From positions 206,889-270,888 of the forward strand of contig NZ_JMPJ01000066.1 in the NCBI RefSeq assembly GCF_000735345.1: a DNA stretch of 64,000 nucleotides. Reading direction: 5' to 3'. The stretch is from Ewingella americana ATCC 33852 (GTDB lineage Bacteria > Pseudomonadota > Gammaproteobacteria > Enterobacterales > Enterobacteriaceae). A program made the translations under genes and the position numbers. The stretch's first letter is position 1. Every line of letters begins with the position of its first letter. The notes below the pieces were generated by a model. That model did no database searches. It saw only the letters and a list, made by a program, of their open reading frames with translations, and had not been told where the DNA came from. Of this stretch, positions 3,987-63,978 are shown piece after piece.

Positions 3987-6149
3987 TTACTCCTCTTTCA
4001 ACCCACGATTTATCAGCATTGGCTCAATAGATGGAGCTTTGCCGCGCCAGGTTTCATAGAGTTTTTCGAGATCTTCGCTGTTGCCGCGAGACAGGATTTG
4101 GTCACGGAACTTCTGCCCGTTTTCACGGGTCAGCCCGCCCTGCTCTTCGATACCCGCGAAGGCGTCATCAGCCAGCATTTCGGTCCACAGATAGGCGTAA
4201 TAACCCGCCGCGTATCCATTGCCCCAGATATGTTGGAAGTAGCTGGAACGATAGCGCGGTGGCACGTAGGCCAGATCGATATTATCTTTCTTCAGCGAGG
4301 CCGCTTCGAACTTGTCCACGTCCTGCTCGGGCTCATTGGCGCTCAGGCTGTGCCAGTGCATATCAAGCAGCGCAGCGGCCAGCAGCTCGGTCATATCGTA
4401 GCCTTTGTTGAACTTGCTGGCCTTCTCGATTTTGTCACGCAGCGCCTGCGGCATGGCTTCGCCGGTCTGGTAATTTTTGGCGAAATGGGAGAAGACTTTC
4501 GGGTCACTCGCCCAGTGCTCGTTGAACTGCGATGGGAATTCAACGAAGTCACGCGGCGTCGCGGTGCCGGAGAGACTCGGGTACTGCTGGTCGGCAAACA
4601 GGCCGTGCAATGCGTGGCCGAACTCGTGGAACATGGTGATCACGTCGTCCCATGACAGCAGCGCGGGCTTGCCCTCTGCCGGCTTTTGGAAGTTCGCGAC
4701 GTTATAAATCACCGGCTTGGTGCCCAGCAGCTTGGACTGATCGACGAAGTTGCTCATCCACGCGCCGCCGCCTTTGTTATCTCGCTGGTAGTAATCGGCG
4801 TAGAACAGTGCCATGGACTGGCCGTCTTTGTCGAACACCTCGAACACCCGCACGTCCGGGTTATAAACCGGCAGGTCGTGGCGCTCTTTGAAGGTCACCC
4901 CGTAGAGCAGGTTCGCGGCATAAAACACGCCGTTTTCCAGCACATTGTTCAGCTCGAAATAGGGTTTGATCTGCGCGTCGTCAAGGTCATATTTCTCTTT
5001 ACGCACCTGCTCGGAATAGTGCTGCCAGTCCCACGCCGCCAGCTTGAAGCCGCCCTTTTGCTTATCAATCAGAGCCTGAATGTCCTGCGCTTCTCGCTCA
5101 GCGCGGGCAGTGGCCGCCGGGACGATTTTATGCATGAAATCGAGCGCGGCCTGCGGCGTTTTCGCCATCTGGTTTTGCAATTTCCAAGCAGCATAAGAAG
5201 GGAAACCCAGGATCTGCGCCTGCTCGGCGCGGACCTTCGCCAGCTTGGAAATCAGCTGGCGCGTGTCGTTAGCATCGCCGTGTTCAGCACGATTTATCGA
5301 AGCCTCATACAGGGCTTTGCGCGTGTCGCGGTCTTCCAGTGGCTGAAGCAACGGCTGCTGGGTGGTGTTCTGCAACACCAGCAGCCACGCGTCGGTCATC
5401 TTGCGGTCTTTTGCCGCTTGAGACGCGGCGGAAAGCTCGGCTTCACTCAGACCGGCCAACTGTTTTTGGTCTTTCACCGTCAGCCCGCCCGCCTTGCTGG
5501 CCGCCAGCAGCTTATTGGTGAATTGGGTGCTGAGCGTCGCCGCCTGCTGGTTCAAGGCTTTGAGTTTTTCTTTGTCGGCATCAGACAGGTTGGCACCCGC
5601 CAGCTCGAAATCTTTATAAGTGACTTCAATCAGACGCTGGGATTCAGCATCTAATTTTAAGGAATTACGCTGCTCATAAACCGTTTTCAGGCGGTCAAAC
5701 AGCTTGCTGTTGAGATGAATGCTGTCGGACATGGCGGCCAGTTTTGGCGAAGTATCTTCGTCAATTTTCTGCAAGCCGTCGGTGGTGTTCGACGAGGTCA
5801 TCGCATCAAACACGCTCAACACGCGGGTCAGTAGCACGCCGGACTTCTCCAGCGCCACGTAGGTGTTCTCAAAGGTTGGCGCAGCCGAGTCGTTGGCGAT
5901 TTTATCGACCTCAGCCAGCTTCTGCTTAATACCTTCGGCAATCGCCGGGGCGTAATCACTCTCTTTATATTTATCGAACTGCGGAGCCTGATAAATCAAC
6001 GGGCTACGTTCAAAGAAAGGGTTTACCGTTTGTTCGGGACTGTTCATGACATTTTCCTGCTTTGAAGTCGCCGTGGAAGGGGTCTCCGCCACTACCGCGT
6101 ACGAGCTGCATGCCAAACTGATAGCCAAGAAGAGGTTTGAAAGACGCAT
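3987..6149 (-). CDS. dcp: Peptidyl-dipeptidase Dcp (M3 metallopeptidase), exported
   Basis: This 720-residue M3 peptidase contains the zinc motif HEFGHALHG at about residues 505-513, and further family blocks (GTATPRDFVEFPSQ and, near the C-terminus, YRSSYFQHIWGNGYAAGYY). Dcp removes dipeptides from peptide C-termini. The frame stays open to 6251, but the ATG at 6149 is preceded by AAGGAA with 7-bp spacing and begins a clear signal peptide (MRLSNLFLAISLACSSYAVVA, cleavage near residue 21), so I take 6149 as the start. The exported form suggests a periplasmic site of action. It is divergent from the qnr-like gene, sharing a 139-bp intergenic region. Confidence 0.92.
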   Translation of the reverse strand: MRLSNLFLAISLACSSYAVVAETPSTATSKQENVMNSPEQTVNPFFERSPLIYQAPQFDKYKESDYAPAIAEGIKQKLAEVDKIANDSAAPTFENTYVALEKSGVLLTRVLSVFDAMTSSNTTDGLQKIDEDTSPKLAAMSDSIHLNSKLFDRLKTVYEQRNSLKLDAESQRLIEVTYKDFELAGANLSDADKEKLKALNQQAATLSTQFTNKLLAASKAGGLTVKDQKQLAGLSEAELSAASQAAKDRKMTDAWLLVLQNTTQQPLLQPLEDRDTRKALYEASINRAEHGDANDTRQLISKLAKVRAEQAQILGFPSYAAWKLQNQMAKTPQAALDFMHKIVPAATARAEREAQDIQALIDKQKGGFKLAAWDWQHYSEQVRKEKYDLDDAQIKPYFELNNVLENGVFYAANLLYGVTFKERHDLPVYNPDVRVFEVFDKDGQSMALFYADYYQRDNKGGGAWMSNFVDQSKLLGTKPVIYNVANFQKPAEGKPALLSWDDVITMFHEFGHALHGLFADQQYPSLSGTATPRDFVEFPSQFNEHWASDPKVFSHFAKNYQTGEAMPQALRDKIEKASKFNKGYDMTELLAAALLDMHWHSLSANEPEQDVDKFEAASLKKDNIDLAYVPPRYRSSYFQHIWGNGYAAGYYAYLWTEMLADDAFAGIEEQGGLTRENGQKFRDQILSRGNSEDLEKLYETWRGKAPSIEPMLINRGLKEE

Positions 6150-23662: not shown

Positions 23663-24592
23663 ATGACCAGCAAAAAAATTGCCGTTATCGGCGAATGCAT
23701 GATTGAACTGTCCCAGAAAGGCTCCTCCCTGAATCGCGGCTTCGGCGGCGACACCCTCAACACCTCGGTTTATATCGCCCGTCAGGTTCCGGCCGACGCG
23801 CTGGAAGTGCAGTACGTCACGGCACTGGGCACTGACAGTTTCAGCGATGAAATGCTGTCGGCATGGCAGCAGGAAGGGGTGAAAACTGATTTGACCCAGC
23901 GTCTGGATAACAAGCTGCCGGGTCTGTACGTGATTGAAACCGATGAATCGGGCGAGCGCACCTTCTATTACTGGCGTAATGACGCCGCCGCGCGCTATTG
24001 GCTCGACAGCCCGAAGTCCGCCGAGATCTGCCAGCAGCTGGCCGAGTTTGATTACATTTATCTCAGCGGCATCAGCCTCGCCATTCTCAATGATGAAAGC
24101 CGCGAACGCCTGATGACCCTGTTGCAAGCTTGTCGCTCACGCGGCGGCAAAGTCATTTTCGACAACAATTACCGCCCGCGCCTGTGGGCCAGCAAAGAGA
24201 AAACGCAGGCGGCTTATAACGCGATGCTCTCTTGCACCGACATCGCCTTCTTGACGTTGGACGACGAAGACATGCTGTGGGGCACGAAGCCTTATGACGA
24301 GGTTATCGCCCGCACTCACGTGCTTGGCGTCAGTGAAGTGGTGATCAAACGCGGCGCAGAGAGCTGTATCGTCTCCGCCTCCGACGGCAAGCTGTATGAC
24401 GTGCCCGCGGTGAAACTGCCAAAAGAGAAAGTCATCGACACCACTGCCGCCGGAGACTCCTTCAGCGCCGGCTACCTCGCCGTCCGCCTGAACGGCGGCA
24501 GCCCAGAAGAAGCCGCCATTCGCGGCCACAAGACAGCCAGCACGGTTATTCAGTATCGCGGGGCGATCATTCCTGGGGATGTGGCTTTTTGA
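23663..24592 (+). CDS. kdgK: 2-dehydro-3-deoxygluconate kinase
   Basis: KdgK phosphorylates 2-keto-3-deoxygluconate for the Entner-Doudoroff aldolase step of pectin and hexuronate catabolism. The 309-residue PfkB-family protein has the N-terminal IGECMIELS, GGDTLNTSVY (substrate), and the C-terminal anion-hole motif DTTAAGDSFSAGYL (catalytic Asp near 255). E. coli KdgK has 309 residues. The gene keeps its E. coli neighbours (pdeH upstream, yhjJ convergent), except for the tautomerase gene and the 0.7-kb palindromic element. Confidence 0.96.
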   Translation: MTSKKIAVIGECMIELSQKGSSLNRGFGGDTLNTSVYIARQVPADALEVQYVTALGTDSFSDEMLSAWQQEGVKTDLTQRLDNKLPGLYVIETDESGERTFYYWRNDAAARYWLDSPKSAEICQQLAEFDYIYLSGISLAILNDESRERLMTLLQACRSRGGKVIFDNNYRPRLWASKEKTQAAYNAMLSCTDIAFLTLDDEDMLWGTKPYDEVIARTHVLGVSEVVIKRGAESCIVSASDGKLYDVPAVKLPKEKVIDTTAAGDSFSAGYLAVRLNGGSPEEAAIRGHKTASTVIQYRGAIIPGDVAF

Positions 24593-24625
24593 AAAAAGCT
24601 GGGTAAAAAGTTTTAGGGGAAGGGG

Positions 24626-24721
24626 AAACCTTGCGTTGCCACGCAAACTGACCTTTAAGGTCAAGGTCAAAACCGTGCGCTGCCGCCACACCGCTAAAAC
24701 CTTGCGTTGCCACGCAAACTG
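24626..24721. repeat. Two 25-bp direct repeats inside the palindromic element
   Basis: An identical 25-bp sequence occurs at 24626-24650 and 24697-24721. It starts AAACCTTGCGTTGCC and contains a small stem, TTGCGT/ACGCAA. Only the left arm has it, so it is a local duplication within the larger element. Confidence 0.85.
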
Positions 24722-25190
24722 GCCCAGAAGGCGCGTAAGCGCGCGCCCTCTGGACTCCCGCGCTTTTGTTGCTGTGTTACCGAGGCTGCGCAGGGTTGGA
24801 ATGGACCTGTTTCAGCCGCCGCAGTGATCGCCACGAAATGCCGCCGCTTAGGCGGTTCCCTCAGTTCGGGCTTCGAGCCATAGGTCTCGAACCACTCCCT
24901 CGGCGTCACTTCTGAACGTGGCCTACTGGCACTTACGCCGTGCCGTTTCATTGGGTTTTGACTTGCTCCTCCCCTAATTAGGAGGAGCAGAGCAGTACTT
25001 CAATGAAACGGCACGGTTGAAATGCCTCAAAACCGCAGTCAAAAATGGCGCTGAGCGAACGGTTCGAGACCTAGGGCTCGAAGCCTGAAGCGAAGGCACC
25101 GCCTAAGCGGCGACATTTTGCGGTGGAGAACTAAAGTAACTGAAACACGTCCGCCCAGCGAGCGGAGCGCGTAGTTAAGAGCCGGGGATT

Positions 25191-25222
25191 CTCAAGGGGC
25201 GCGGCGATAGGCGCCCCTTGAG
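25191..25222. repeat. Strong hairpin in the right arm of the palindromic element
   Basis: CTCAAGGGGCGC (25191-25202), 8-base loop, GCGCCCCTTGAG (25211-25222). A 12-bp perfect stem without a T-run, so not an ordinary terminator. The left arm has a different, weaker hairpin here (GCGCGTAAGCGCGC near 24731). Confidence 0.85.
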
Positions 25223-25319
25223 GCCGGTGTGGCGGCAGCGCACGGTTTTGACCTTAAGGCCAGTATGGGCGGCGAGCCCACGGTTTTCGGGAACAGGGGC
25301 CGAAGCCCCCTCTAAAACT

Positions 25320-26843
25320 TTATTGCCCCTGCACTGCCGCCGGTGCATTACTCGCCGCATCGGCAGGTGCTGCCTCAGGCGCTACAGCAGGAACCATGAT
25401 TTGATCGTAGGTTTCCTGCAACAGCTTGACGCTCATCTCTGGCTCGCCTTTCGGCTGTACCAGTAACAAGGCTGGGTCGCGGGAAAGCTGCTGTTTCAGC
25501 TCCTGATTCAATACCGGCAGAGTCAAGGAAGAGAGGAACTCCTGACGTAATTTCTGATACTGCTCTGGCGCGATATCCACCACACCATTCTGCTGAGAAC
25601 GCAGGCGCTGGCTCATTAGCACGTCGGTGTCAGTGCGGGCATAAGTCGCAAACAGTTTGCTGAGCTGATCGTTCTTCTGAGCAATCAACGCGTCAAACTC
25701 AGCCTGAGACAGGCCAGTATCGCGCATTTTAAGCAACTCTTGAGACAGGTGCTTCAGCGAATCAAGCATCTTGTCTTGGGCAGCATCCATACGGATTGCA
25801 CACTGGGCGCGCTGATATTGCACGCGGCAGTCAAAGCTTAAGTTAGGCACCGGCATCTCGGCGCTGGCTTTAGACTCTTTACCGTCAGGCGAGGTTTTCA
25901 GCGCCTGCTGCAAATGCCAGAACAAGGCTTCGCGCGCCAAATCACTGCGCCAGTAAGTGCTCAATGCCTGTGAATCTTGAATCGGCTGCCACGGCGTGTC
26001 CCATAACAGCGACAACTTATCTTGCGTGATGGAGTCATCCATCAGCGTCATGGCTTTTGGTGGCAGGCTGGCAAGCGTTGGCAAGGTCTGCGGCGTCTCG
26101 CGAGTGCCTTTCAGCTTGGAGAAGGTTTTGTTGATCTGCTCGCTGAGATTACGGCTGCTATCAACATTACCCACCACGTACAGCGTCATGGCGTCCGGGG
26201 TGTACCACTGATGATAGAACTGGCTCAGCGCCTTGGCATCTACCGGGTGCGCAGGAGACTGGCTCGGATCGTGGCCCAACAATGTTGAACCTTTCAGGCG
26301 ATAACGCCACCAAGCATCTTGGGTATCCATCGGGATGGCACCCACGGGATCAGGAGAAATGCGCGCGCCGTCGCTGACGGTTTCAGGAGTGATAGGCAAC
26401 TGACCGGCGGTTGACGCCAACCATGACAAGGCTTCTTTCAGCAGATCAGCGCGGCCATTGGGCAGGCTGATGTTGTACATGGTGAAATCATAAGAAGAGA
26501 CGGCTGGCGGAAGAGGTCTTACGGTGCTGATAGCCTGTTGCCAGAAAGATTGTAACTGAGCGCTGCTGAAACCTTCGGAATGCGTTAAGGCGATACGAGG
26601 AAGGAAATGCGCGAAGCCGGTTTGTTGGCTTGATTCGGCTAAAGAGCCGGTACGGACAATAAGACGTAATTCAATGCGATCGCTTGGACGTTGCGGCGTT
26701 GCCAGCATCTGCCAGGTAAAACCATTGTCTAATTTACCCTGTTGCCAGGCTGGGTCGGGTTGTAGCGCCTCAGCCTGAACATTGCCTGCGGCAACTGCCA
26801 GCAGCAATCCACCAACGAGTAAACGAATTTTGGTGCCCTGCAT
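25320..26843 (-). CDS. yhjJ: YhjJ, periplasmic M16-peptidase-like protein
   Basis: The 507-residue protein starts at 26843 (AGGGG 6 bp upstream) with a signal peptide (cleavage after VQA near residue 24). It has the M16 (pitrilysin/insulinase) fold: LDNGFTWQML, then a region where active M16 enzymes have HxxEH. Here that site reads HFLPR, so the Glu and second His are lost and the protein is unlikely to be a zinc peptidase; E. coli YhjJ is likewise regarded as non-catalytic. The second M16 domain begins near 190 (HPVDAKALSQFYHQWYTPDAMTLYVVG). The tail is Ala/Pro-rich. The stop codon overlaps the end of the palindromic element. Confidence 0.9.
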   Translation of the reverse strand: MQGTKIRLLVGGLLLAVAAGNVQAEALQPDPAWQQGKLDNGFTWQMLATPQRPSDRIELRLIVRTGSLAESSQQTGFAHFLPRIALTHSEGFSSAQLQSFWQQAISTVRPLPPAVSSYDFTMYNISLPNGRADLLKEALSWLASTAGQLPITPETVSDGARISPDPVGAIPMDTQDAWWRYRLKGSTLLGHDPSQSPAHPVDAKALSQFYHQWYTPDAMTLYVVGNVDSSRNLSEQINKTFSKLKGTRETPQTLPTLASLPPKAMTLMDDSITQDKLSLLWDTPWQPIQDSQALSTYWRSDLAREALFWHLQQALKTSPDGKESKASAEMPVPNLSFDCRVQYQRAQCAIRMDAAQDKMLDSLKHLSQELLKMRDTGLSQAEFDALIAQKNDQLSKLFATYARTDTDVLMSQRLRSQQNGVVDIAPEQYQKLRQEFLSSLTLPVLNQELKQQLSRDPALLLVQPKGEPEMSVKLLQETYDQIMVPAVAPEAAPADAASNAPAAVQGQ

Positions 26844-27180
26844 GTGAACCCCTACGTAATGACAATCCAATTTTCAATTTGTCTGTCCTGCCGGTGTCTG
26901 ACGACTGGCCCACAGGATATCGATGTGTTGAAACGAAGACGGCAAAGTTTAGCACTGTGTTAGACCGCACGTTTTCGCCGATGTCACCGTTCACATGAAA
27001 ATTTTCTAAGAAAAAACTGCCTCAGGGACATCGGGGATGCACATTATGAAGATAATCTTAGGGTTACATCAAGCAACCGTTGGATTTATAGGGAAATTAA
27101 GCATGAAAAAGGCAGGTTTGGAGTATTCCAACCTGCCTTTTTTATAACTTACGAACGGTTTTTAGAAACAACGGATCCGA
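26844..27180. other. Intergenic region between yhjJ and dctA
   Basis: The left part must hold the yhjJ promoter (minus strand). The right part carries the dctA terminator at 27109-27142. I see no gene; a 14-codon ATG frame at 27102 lies inside the terminator stem and is not credible. Confidence 0.5.
27109..27142 (-). terminator. Terminator after dctA
   Basis: AAGGCAGGTT and AACCTGCCTT form the stem around a loop near TGGAGTATTCC (further paired TGGA/TCCA); T-runs occur on both strands, so it could act in both directions. It follows the dctA stop. Confidence 0.88.
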
Positions 27181-49975: not shown

Positions 49976-50107
49976 CAAATGTGGTCGGCGAGAGAGGATT
50001 ACGCGCATCTGCGATGCTTGCCCTGCGGGCCGTTGCTAAAGCAACGTGGTCTCGCTTCGCTCGGCTCAAACCTCCTTCGGAGGTTCTCATCCTCATAAAC
50101 TTCAGAC

Positions 50108-50138
50108 GAAAAAAAACCTGCTTTAAAAAGCAGGTTTC
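50108..50138 (-). terminator. Terminator of the tRNA-Pro transcript
   Basis: On the minus strand AAACCTGCTT/AAGCAGGTTT followed by TTTTTTCG, directly after the tRNA 3' end. Confidence 0.88.
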
Positions 50139-50145
50139 TTAAATG

Positions 50146-50222
50146 TGGTCGGCGAGAGAGGATTCGAACCTCCGACCCACTGGTCCCAAACCAGTTGCGC
50201 TACCAAGCTGCGCTACTCGCCG
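50146..50222 (-). tRNA. tRNA-Pro (anticodon UGG)
   Basis: 77 nt, minus strand, starting CGGCGAGTAGCGCAGC and ending with encoded CCA. The acceptor stem CGGCGAG/CTCGCCG, D-loop GCTTGGTA, anticodon stem-loop ACTGG-TTTGGGA-CCAGT (anticodon TGG) and T-arm GGTTCGAATCC all fold normally. E. coli's tRNA at this locus (proK) reads CGG; this one equals the proM-type UGG sequence as I recall it. Confidence 0.97.
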
Positions 50223-63843: not shown

Positions 63844-63860
63844 TTGTTAGGTAAGGGATA

Positions 63861-63978
63861 ACTCCTTCTCTCCTCACGGGGAAAGCAGGATGAGCCTCTA
63901 CTCCTTCTCCCCTCATGGGGAAAGCAGGATGAGCCTTAACTCCTTCTCCCCTCACGGGGAGAAGGCTGGGATGAGGGG
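63861..63978. repeat. Three tandem 39-bp repeat units
   Basis: Units begin at 63861, 63900 and 63939 with ACTCCTTCTC(T/C)CCTCA, each followed by a GGGGA(A/G)A and a GATGAG stretch. The third unit contains the palindrome CCTTCTCCCC/GGGGAGAAGG around TCAC. It resembles REP-type intergenic palindromes and lies between urtA and whatever gene follows. Confidence 0.8.

Follow-up and report, generated by a model that had tools for sequence, protein, structure and literature searches.

A dispersed family of mosaic palindromes at fixed, mostly convergent gene boundaries in Ewingella and its relatives

The gap between the convergent genes kdgK and yhjJ of Ewingella americana ATCC 33852 holds a nested palindrome, which we analyzed within a 64,000-nt stretch of contig NZ_JMPJ01000066.1 (the window). 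Comparison with other genomes revealed that it is one copy of a dispersed repeat family. With a probability of roughly 0.7, we regard this family as an old, site-fixed, recombining and non-coding set of mosaic palindromes of the Ewingella-Rahnella lineage, similar to bacterial interspersed mosaic elements (BIMEs) and turned over by recombination and collapse. The shape of its small hairpins is kept but their sequence is not, and the element-wide mirror is not specifically kept. The genomes compared were the own draft genome (G000; 4.87 Mb, 92 contigs), a more complete sister genome (G001) and other congeners (G002-G005). The family is apparently undescribed so far; we found no description of it in the open-access literature, including the accessible parts of PMC7281767, PMC12267313, PMC3733652 and PMC12306157.

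The sequence and a repeat finder confirmed the inverted blocks, and with them the palindrome that an earlier note on this DNA had described. Where that note placed a perfect block of 29 bp, a block indeed exists, but the perfect inverted pair is 31 bp long (24663-24693 / 25225-25255). An inverted arm pair of 123 nt with 77% identity (24831-24953 / 25001-25123) covers the middle blocks of the note, a 12-bp stem lies inside the right arm (25191-25222), and the outer inverted pair measures 13 nt with one mismatch (24607-24619 / 25309-25321). Folded as RNA, the 715 nt formed a single rod of -427.6 kcal/mol (z = -18.9 against 20 dinucleotide shuffles, none of which was equally stable). In a blastn search of the own genome, the family-matching part of the window copy spanned about 24626-25291 (query 27-692 of 24600-25330). 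The outermost AAAGTTTTAG / CTAAAACTTT pair, named as the ends of the element in the earlier note, was present at one of 40 G000 sites and one of 41 G001 sites and is not a family end. The blastn comparison proposed there returned several copies in the host and its relatives, but not with these same ends. The GGGGCC..GCCCC hairpin adjoining yhjJ looks like ordinary flank because it recurs, slightly altered, beside yhjJ in G002-G005.

A sequence search of the own genome found the window copy and about 40 further related stretches (best E = 5e-163), as expected for the dispersed family that had been suggested. This count is a lower bound, since 40 of 79 candidates were scored; five of eight further fetched stretches also contained family pieces. 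Many G000 contigs end inside a copy, so that some stretches are the two ends of one site. G001 carries 68 arms at 41 sites, and family matches occurred in all six genus genomes, the own genome included, with no match anywhere in 34 genomes from other genera. The exact core motif was present in 4 of 295 genomes of the bacterial family, a sample that included four of the six genus genomes; all four hits belonged to this genus, one of 154 genera. A query from a Rahnella plasmid matched 7 of the 295 genomes (2 of 154 genera, namely this genus and one other), and the plasmid collection held ten records with relatives, all from Rahnella. A public genome scan for the exact core motif, which may omit records near the window, returned 42 stretches, all from Ewingella americana E4, Hafnia psychrotolerans, one metagenome assembly and 'Enterobacterales bacterium AwEntero'. 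No blastn match was found in 20,395 Escherichia coli records. The search of viral contigs gave one exact core match (L277, IMGVR_UViG_3300031110_000610), a stretch 88-90% like several G000 copies over its best pieces and less like others, which is probably a piece of host sequence on a viral-labelled contig. Phage origin was rejected on the absence of matches in 50,697 phage records and on this single viral-contig match, most simply explained as host DNA.

Most of these sites are fixed. A flank in common with a G001 copy was found for 36 of the 40 G000 stretches, and for no fewer than 12 of the 41 G001 sites, family sequence with the same flank on either side is also present in a more distant congener. 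The family can be called mobile, as had been proposed, only historically. The kdgK-yhjJ site is occupied in six of six genus genomes. G000 and G001 carry the same modules there (96% identity for the element, 93% for kdgK), G003, G004 and G005 share the plan with other modules, and in G002 the gap has collapsed to 222 bp and contains tip hairpins plus a single hybrid inner hairpin. Family sites are kept between species with about 80-83% kdgK identity, and family modules were not seen by eye in six outgroup gaps (L146 in part, L147, L149, L150, L151, L152). The four G000 sites that lack a G001 counterpart were read for collapsed forms: in G001, two of them have a solitary tip hairpin, one a loop plus a single tip and one nothing but a loop hairpin. 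At one such site G002-G005 were read as well; by eye they show nothing there, G000 carries a full copy and G001 a single hairpin. Two Rahnella plasmids likewise carry a full and a collapsed copy at the same site.

A full copy, about 500-750 bp long, has a variable loop between two inverted arms that have diverged from each other and are themselves built of small hairpins in series. Going inwards from the tip, the order is hexamer runs, at least one tip hairpin resembling repetitive extragenic palindromic (REP) sequences, the inner hairpin H2 and a spacer, followed by the core CCGCCTAAGCGG and another hairpin, H4. Two or more consecutive hexamers such as GACCTT or GAATTT were found at 31 of 41 G001 and 24 of 40 G000 sites. 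The tip hairpin GTGGGC(3-6)GCCCAC occurred 54 times in G001 against three times for a reversed control; 47 of 50 listed places adjoin a core-motif site, and two of the other three are G001 sites where G000 carries a full copy. In the two-core copies read in G000 and G001, the arms always had the same inverted sense; the congener stretch L104, with two same-sense cores 392 bp apart, is perhaps two neighbouring copies. Arms were assigned to type A or B from the 24-bp core alone. A-B pairing was seen in 24 of 27 two-armed G001 copies, an excess that we did not use as evidence because copies may simply be inherited as A-B units. The left and right arms within one G000 copy are about 0.55-0.67 identical, two A-A copies included.

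The loop can hold a gene, because in L192 (G001) a 180-aa P-loop NTPase frame (2383-2925; PF13238, just above cut-off) sits between arms that lie about 0.9 kb apart, as they do in its G000 orthologue L072. The L192 arrangement looks like a gene that was captured in the loop or that has a half copy on either side. An independent CTCC..GGAG-rich palindromic repeat was noticed in the loops of L054, L060 and L066, and a CTCC..GGAG-rich repeat also lies in L208 of G001 (5350-5680) beside an apparent collapsed copy. The window itself has a CTCC/GGGG-rich 39-bp tandem repeat of 2.6 copies at 63860-63960, with no blast match at E 1e-30 to the CTCC-rich loops of L054 or L060.

Comparison of G000 with G001 revealed turnover within the fixed sites. 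At L046/L190, the flanks are collinear and 612 bp aligned in reverse at 98.2%, a clean in-place inversion and the single one among 16 copy pairs compared. The two ends share an inverted run of about 37 bp (one mismatch), enough for recombination. Arm identities point to exchange between sites. Among 47 G000 outer arm halves, 15 matched the orthologous site best, three tied and 29 matched another site better; the 42 inner halves gave 12, three and 27. We also considered a strict set of nine pairs that lie inside contigs and have both cores in each genome (18 arms), for which the numbers were six orthologous, two tied and ten elsewhere for the outer halves and seven, two and nine for the inner halves. 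About half of even the safest arms thus look exchanged. L047, L049 and L063 are examples of apparent exchange, whereas the window copy, L046 and L052 are faithful to their own site; L072 was cut by a contig end in this comparison. The exchange of arms would be homologous recombination between copies, and collapse presumably arises by slippage or recombination between hairpins. The family itself would have spread long ago by a mechanism that is no longer visible.

To describe the hairpins, we replaced a whole-arm RNAalifold analysis on a poor 604-column alignment by an analysis of single modules. Of 37 distinct 34-mers, the 16 typed H2 hairpins whose loop has 8 nt formed the covariation set; the collection of 34-mers missed 19 of 157 arms and admitted a few stretches that are not H2. 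In this set, 94.8% of 192 cells were paired against 77.8% after shuffling, with none of 500 shuffles as high, and 35 cells had changed on both sides while none had changed on one side only. In 34 H2 hairpins of all types, read on the tip-to-core strand, we counted 383 Watson-Crick, 2 G-T, 14 A-C and 2 other pairs. The mispairs are strand-biased: the 14 A-C become G-T when read from the core-to-tip strand, and an RNA read outward would tolerate them. The fold energy of 157 arms was -102.0 tip-to-core and -103.4 core-to-tip (p = 0.01), compared with -88.3 and -89.1 for 80 shuffled arms, and the difference between strands grows rather than shrinks when G-U pairs are forbidden. We did not retain a preference for one RNA strand, which is weak and ambiguous, as the small energy difference does not behave as G-U tolerance predicts.

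The copies are not spread evenly over the chromosome. In the main contig of G001 (4,662,831 bp), what we take to be the dif consensus occurs once, exactly, at 2,094,452, and the GC skew switches sign there and again near 4.53 Mb, in keeping with terminus and origin. Counting core motifs with at most three mismatches, so that copies with other cores were missed, 34 of 41 sites lie within 1 Mb of dif (17.6 expected; KS p = 1e-7) and 15 within 250 kb (4.4 expected). The 400 kb round dif hold 17 blocks and 400 kb on the origin side two. Convergent gaps number 68 and 62 in the same samples, of which ten and two, respectively, are occupied (p = 0.03). The window copy is one of the few on the origin side. 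The terminus system matS/MatP was considered and rejected: exact or one-mismatch matS sites, located in the 400 kb round dif with a presumed consensus, never lay within 600 bp of 16 copy positions.

The gene context is mostly convergent. In G001, 29 of 41 sites are convergent, eight tandem and four divergent, compared with 130 convergent pairs among 687 neighbouring gene pairs in the two 400-kb samples (p = 8e-13); genes were called by simple open-frame rules, and single context classes may be wrong. A smaller baseline, taken from the window and five stretches, counted 14 convergent pairs in 110 and 10 in 97; we used the larger, less favourable one. Among 19 G000 stretches, 15 were convergent, two tandem and two divergent, after 21 of 40 with short flanks had been dropped.

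The family shares features with several known repeat systems. A REPIN is a pair of REPs that folds into a hairpin, and REPINs are linked to REP-associated tyrosine transposases (RAYTs), according to the accessible parts of PMC3116915 and PMC2817692. As far as those parts go, the likeness lies in inverted pairs of short hairpins that fold into larger structures, in many intergenic copies and in solo hairpins as remnants. The Ewingella copies differ by their size, long conserved arms, and in-place exchange and inversion. A REP unit has 20-40 bp and a doublet about 100 bp, so that full copies are far longer, although collapsed copies approach doublet size. The REP hallmark is an unpaired GT(A/G)G head in front of the palindrome; by eye, GTGG lies inside the tip-hairpin stem GTGGGC..GCCCAC. 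PF01797, the RAYT-type transposase domain, gave no match in G000, G001 or G005, and no RAYT flanked by the same hairpins was found. We do not file the family as REPINs because unit size and RAYT linkage fail. PF01797-type short frames were noticed at G002:C9:187853 (L280), G003:C2:50538 (L279) and G004:C23:144862 (L278), and, judged by eye only, the frames beside PF01797 in L278 and L280 resemble a tellurite-type cluster.

Like BIMEs, the family is a mosaic of hairpin motifs and linkers downstream of genes, here with hairpin modules in many combinations, but its plan is arm-loop-inverted arm rather than alternating REP runs, which in BIMEs bind gyrase, IHF or Pol I, and it has no blastn match in the E. 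coli records. REPs tagged GTAG/CGTC, described in the accessible part of PMC3733652 as lying mostly between unidirectional and convergent open reading frames (ORFs), also comprise many close units in opposite orientation. These are units of 20-40 bp; the Ewingella unit is more than ten times longer and biased to convergent gaps. ERIC, YPAL and NEMIS-type miniature inverted-repeat transposable elements (MITEs), which the same source names, are likewise intergenic, non-coding, folding repeats, some of them in enterobacteria, and MITEs have terminal repeats of 15-30 bp (PMC3733652). No terminal repeat common to the Ewingella copies was seen, and the tips of the copies read differ; at four compared sites, no clean target duplication was found. 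ERIC, at about 127 bp several times shorter than an Ewingella copy, is carried by E. coli, whose 20,395 records gave no blastn match.

Several points weigh against reading the family as an old set of recombining, fixed palindromes with conserved hairpins. One of five covariation measures, further pair types, stood at shuffle level (402 of 500). The A and B arms of a copy match no better within than between copies: 0.656 against 0.669 for G001 inner halves and 0.633 against 0.632 for outer halves (n = 24 each), and 0.652 against 0.666 for G000, inner half only (n = 11). Selection on an element-wide long stem is accordingly unsupported, and the mirror is better explained by two inverted arms that have diverged than by upkeep of a long stem. 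The number of arm halves matching another site better is inflated, since some orthologous arms with an off-motif core were absent from the 47 and 42 comparisons, and some arm swaps could be short-read assembly chimeras, as contigs of the G000 draft often end inside copies. The terminus bias was measured in one genome. The eight tandem and four divergent G001 sites depart from the convergent rule, an alternative gene-call rule gave ten convergent, three tandem and three divergent sites in the dif sample, and terminator-like sites were no more frequent than in shuffles.

Continued transposition would be a different account of the turnover, with the family an active non-autonomous mobile element, MITE- or REPIN-like and moved in trans by a transposase. 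Its dispersal, palindromic form and about 40 copies suit such an element, and the site that is full in G000, a single hairpin in G001 and empty to the eye in G002-G005 suggests that gains occur. However, 36 of 40 G000 stretches have a G001-copy flank in common, the copies share no terminal sequence, and no target duplication was readable at the four compared sites. PF01797 is absent from G000 and G001, which have the highest core-motif counts of the four genomes counted, and the single PF01797 loci of G002, G003 and G004 lack the searched element motifs and blast matches, on which grounds we rejected mobilization by RAYTs. We consider active mobility quite unlikely. A more far-reaching reading would make these elements a class of their own, giant composite palindromes that draw on a genome-wide pool of hairpin cassettes. 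The cassettes would occupy about 40 fixed boundaries, mostly 3'-3' and clustered round dif, would be reshuffled by recombination between sites and flipped in place with the shape of each hairpin conserved rather than its sequence, and would serve transcription or topology where convergent genes meet in the terminus region; we offer this only tentatively and doubt that it holds.

The remaining alternatives concern what keeps the hairpins. A structured RNA or 3'-untranslated element, with RNA hairpins selected to end or stabilize the transcripts of both neighbours, would agree with the strong compensatory changes, the fold z-score, the 3' location and the mispairs, which are mostly G-T on the core-to-tip strand. 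The absence of one-sided standard changes in the 192 cells, the small strand difference in energy that grows without G-U pairs, the lack of an Rfam family and a terminator scan at chance speak against it, and we find it rather doubtful. The structured RNA suggested in the earlier note keeps its strong covariation, but upkeep at the DNA level explains this as well; that the element ends both transcripts is plausible from the 3'-3' context but gained nothing from the terminator scan. A DNA-topology boundary, as proposed for BIMEs, would absorb positive supercoils between convergent genes via gyrase or cruciform extrusion. The convergent and dif-near bias and a hairpin symmetry kept without one-sided changes are consistent with it, whereas matS is not near the 16 copy positions and the E. 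coli records hold no match, so that the family is not an E. coli BIME by descent at that sensitivity; we judge this, too, rather unlikely. Tolerance without function is a serious rival. Old repeats would be passive baggage that survives only in convergent gaps, which hold no promoters of the neighbouring genes, and near the terminus, with collapse and decay forms as expected. Hairpin symmetry may then arise by mutation without selection, and the covariation could come from template switching in quasipalindromes, which the accessible parts of PMC7202029 (for E. coli) and PMC8604942 describe. Sites kept at about 80-83% kdgK identity and long arms that are kept exceed the expectation of neutral decay, and we regard passive baggage as somewhat unlikely.

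For the fixed, recombining family that we prefer, a function, if any, would be that of a structural boundary where the 3' ends of convergent genes meet, at which transcripts are ended or protected or supercoils absorbed, and upkeep would act on the small hairpins and not on a giant stem. Such a boundary is the most likely role, if there is one; it is equally possible that convergent gaps are places that merely tolerate such DNA. The present data do not distinguish between transcript ending, RNA protection and supercoil control.

The features of the window copy are collected in Table 1; the gene names kdgK and yhjJ were taken from the earlier note. Four ORFs in or over the element had no Pfam or NCBIfam match at E 0.05, and protein coding was rejected on this ground. 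In agreement with the earlier note, no transposase was recognized in these ORFs or, as PF01797, in the own genome; insertion sequence databases were not searched. At the Rfam gathering threshold, no match was found at the element, and the only matches in the window were RtT RNA and tRNA at 49982-50222 on the minus strand.

Table 1. Parts of the kdgK-yhjJ copy and its neighbouring genes, in window coordinates.
Feature	Position	Strand	Basis
Family-homologous element, A-core arm left, B-core arm right	24626..25291		blastn pieces within query 27-692; G001 orthologue 96%
Left tip: three REP-like small hairpins (AAACCTTGCGTTGCCACGCAA.., AAAACCGTGCGCTGCCGCCAC.., AAAACCTTGCGTTGCCACGCAA..)	24626..24721		sequence; direct repeat D1; other copies with similar tip modules
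Left inner hairpin H2 (CCAGAAGGCGCG TAAG CGCGCGCCCTCTGG), one of many module variants	24724..24753		sequence
Left arm core region, type A	24831..24953		core motif with one mismatch, minus strand, 24832-24855; hairpin H4 near 24868-24895
Loop hairpin GCTCCTCCCCTAATTAGGAGGAGC	24965..24988		similar hairpin without arms at G001 site L207
Right arm core region, type B	25001..25123		core motif CCGCCTAAGCGGCGACATTTTGCG at 25099-25122
Right inner hairpin H2 (CTCAAGGGGCGC GGCGATAG GCGCCCCTTGAG)	25191..25222		inverted repeat I5; module covariation
Right tip: two REP-like hairpins, GGTTTTGACCTT linker	25225..25287		sequence, repeats
Left end named in the earlier note, AAAGTTTTAGGGG, site-specific, not a family end	24607..24619		1/40 and 1/41 sites
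Hairpin AGGGGCCGAAGCCCC and CTCTAAAACTTT adjoining yhjJ stop; hairpin resembles ordinary flank	25295..25321		sequence, congener gaps
kdgK, PfkB-family kinase, left convergent neighbour	23663..24592	+	ORF; PF00294
yhjJ-like M16 peptidase-family protein, right convergent neighbour	25320..26870	-	ORF; PF00675/PF05193

Long palindromes are usually unstable in bacterial chromosomes. The Ewingella family is a natural case of long palindromes at tens of fixed chromosomal sites, in which inversion, module exchange and collapse are visible between close species. The system offers a test of two long-standing questions. One is whether the effect of interspersed palindromes between convergent genes is on transcripts or on supercoiling; the other is whether selection or template-switch mutation maintains the symmetry of hairpins.

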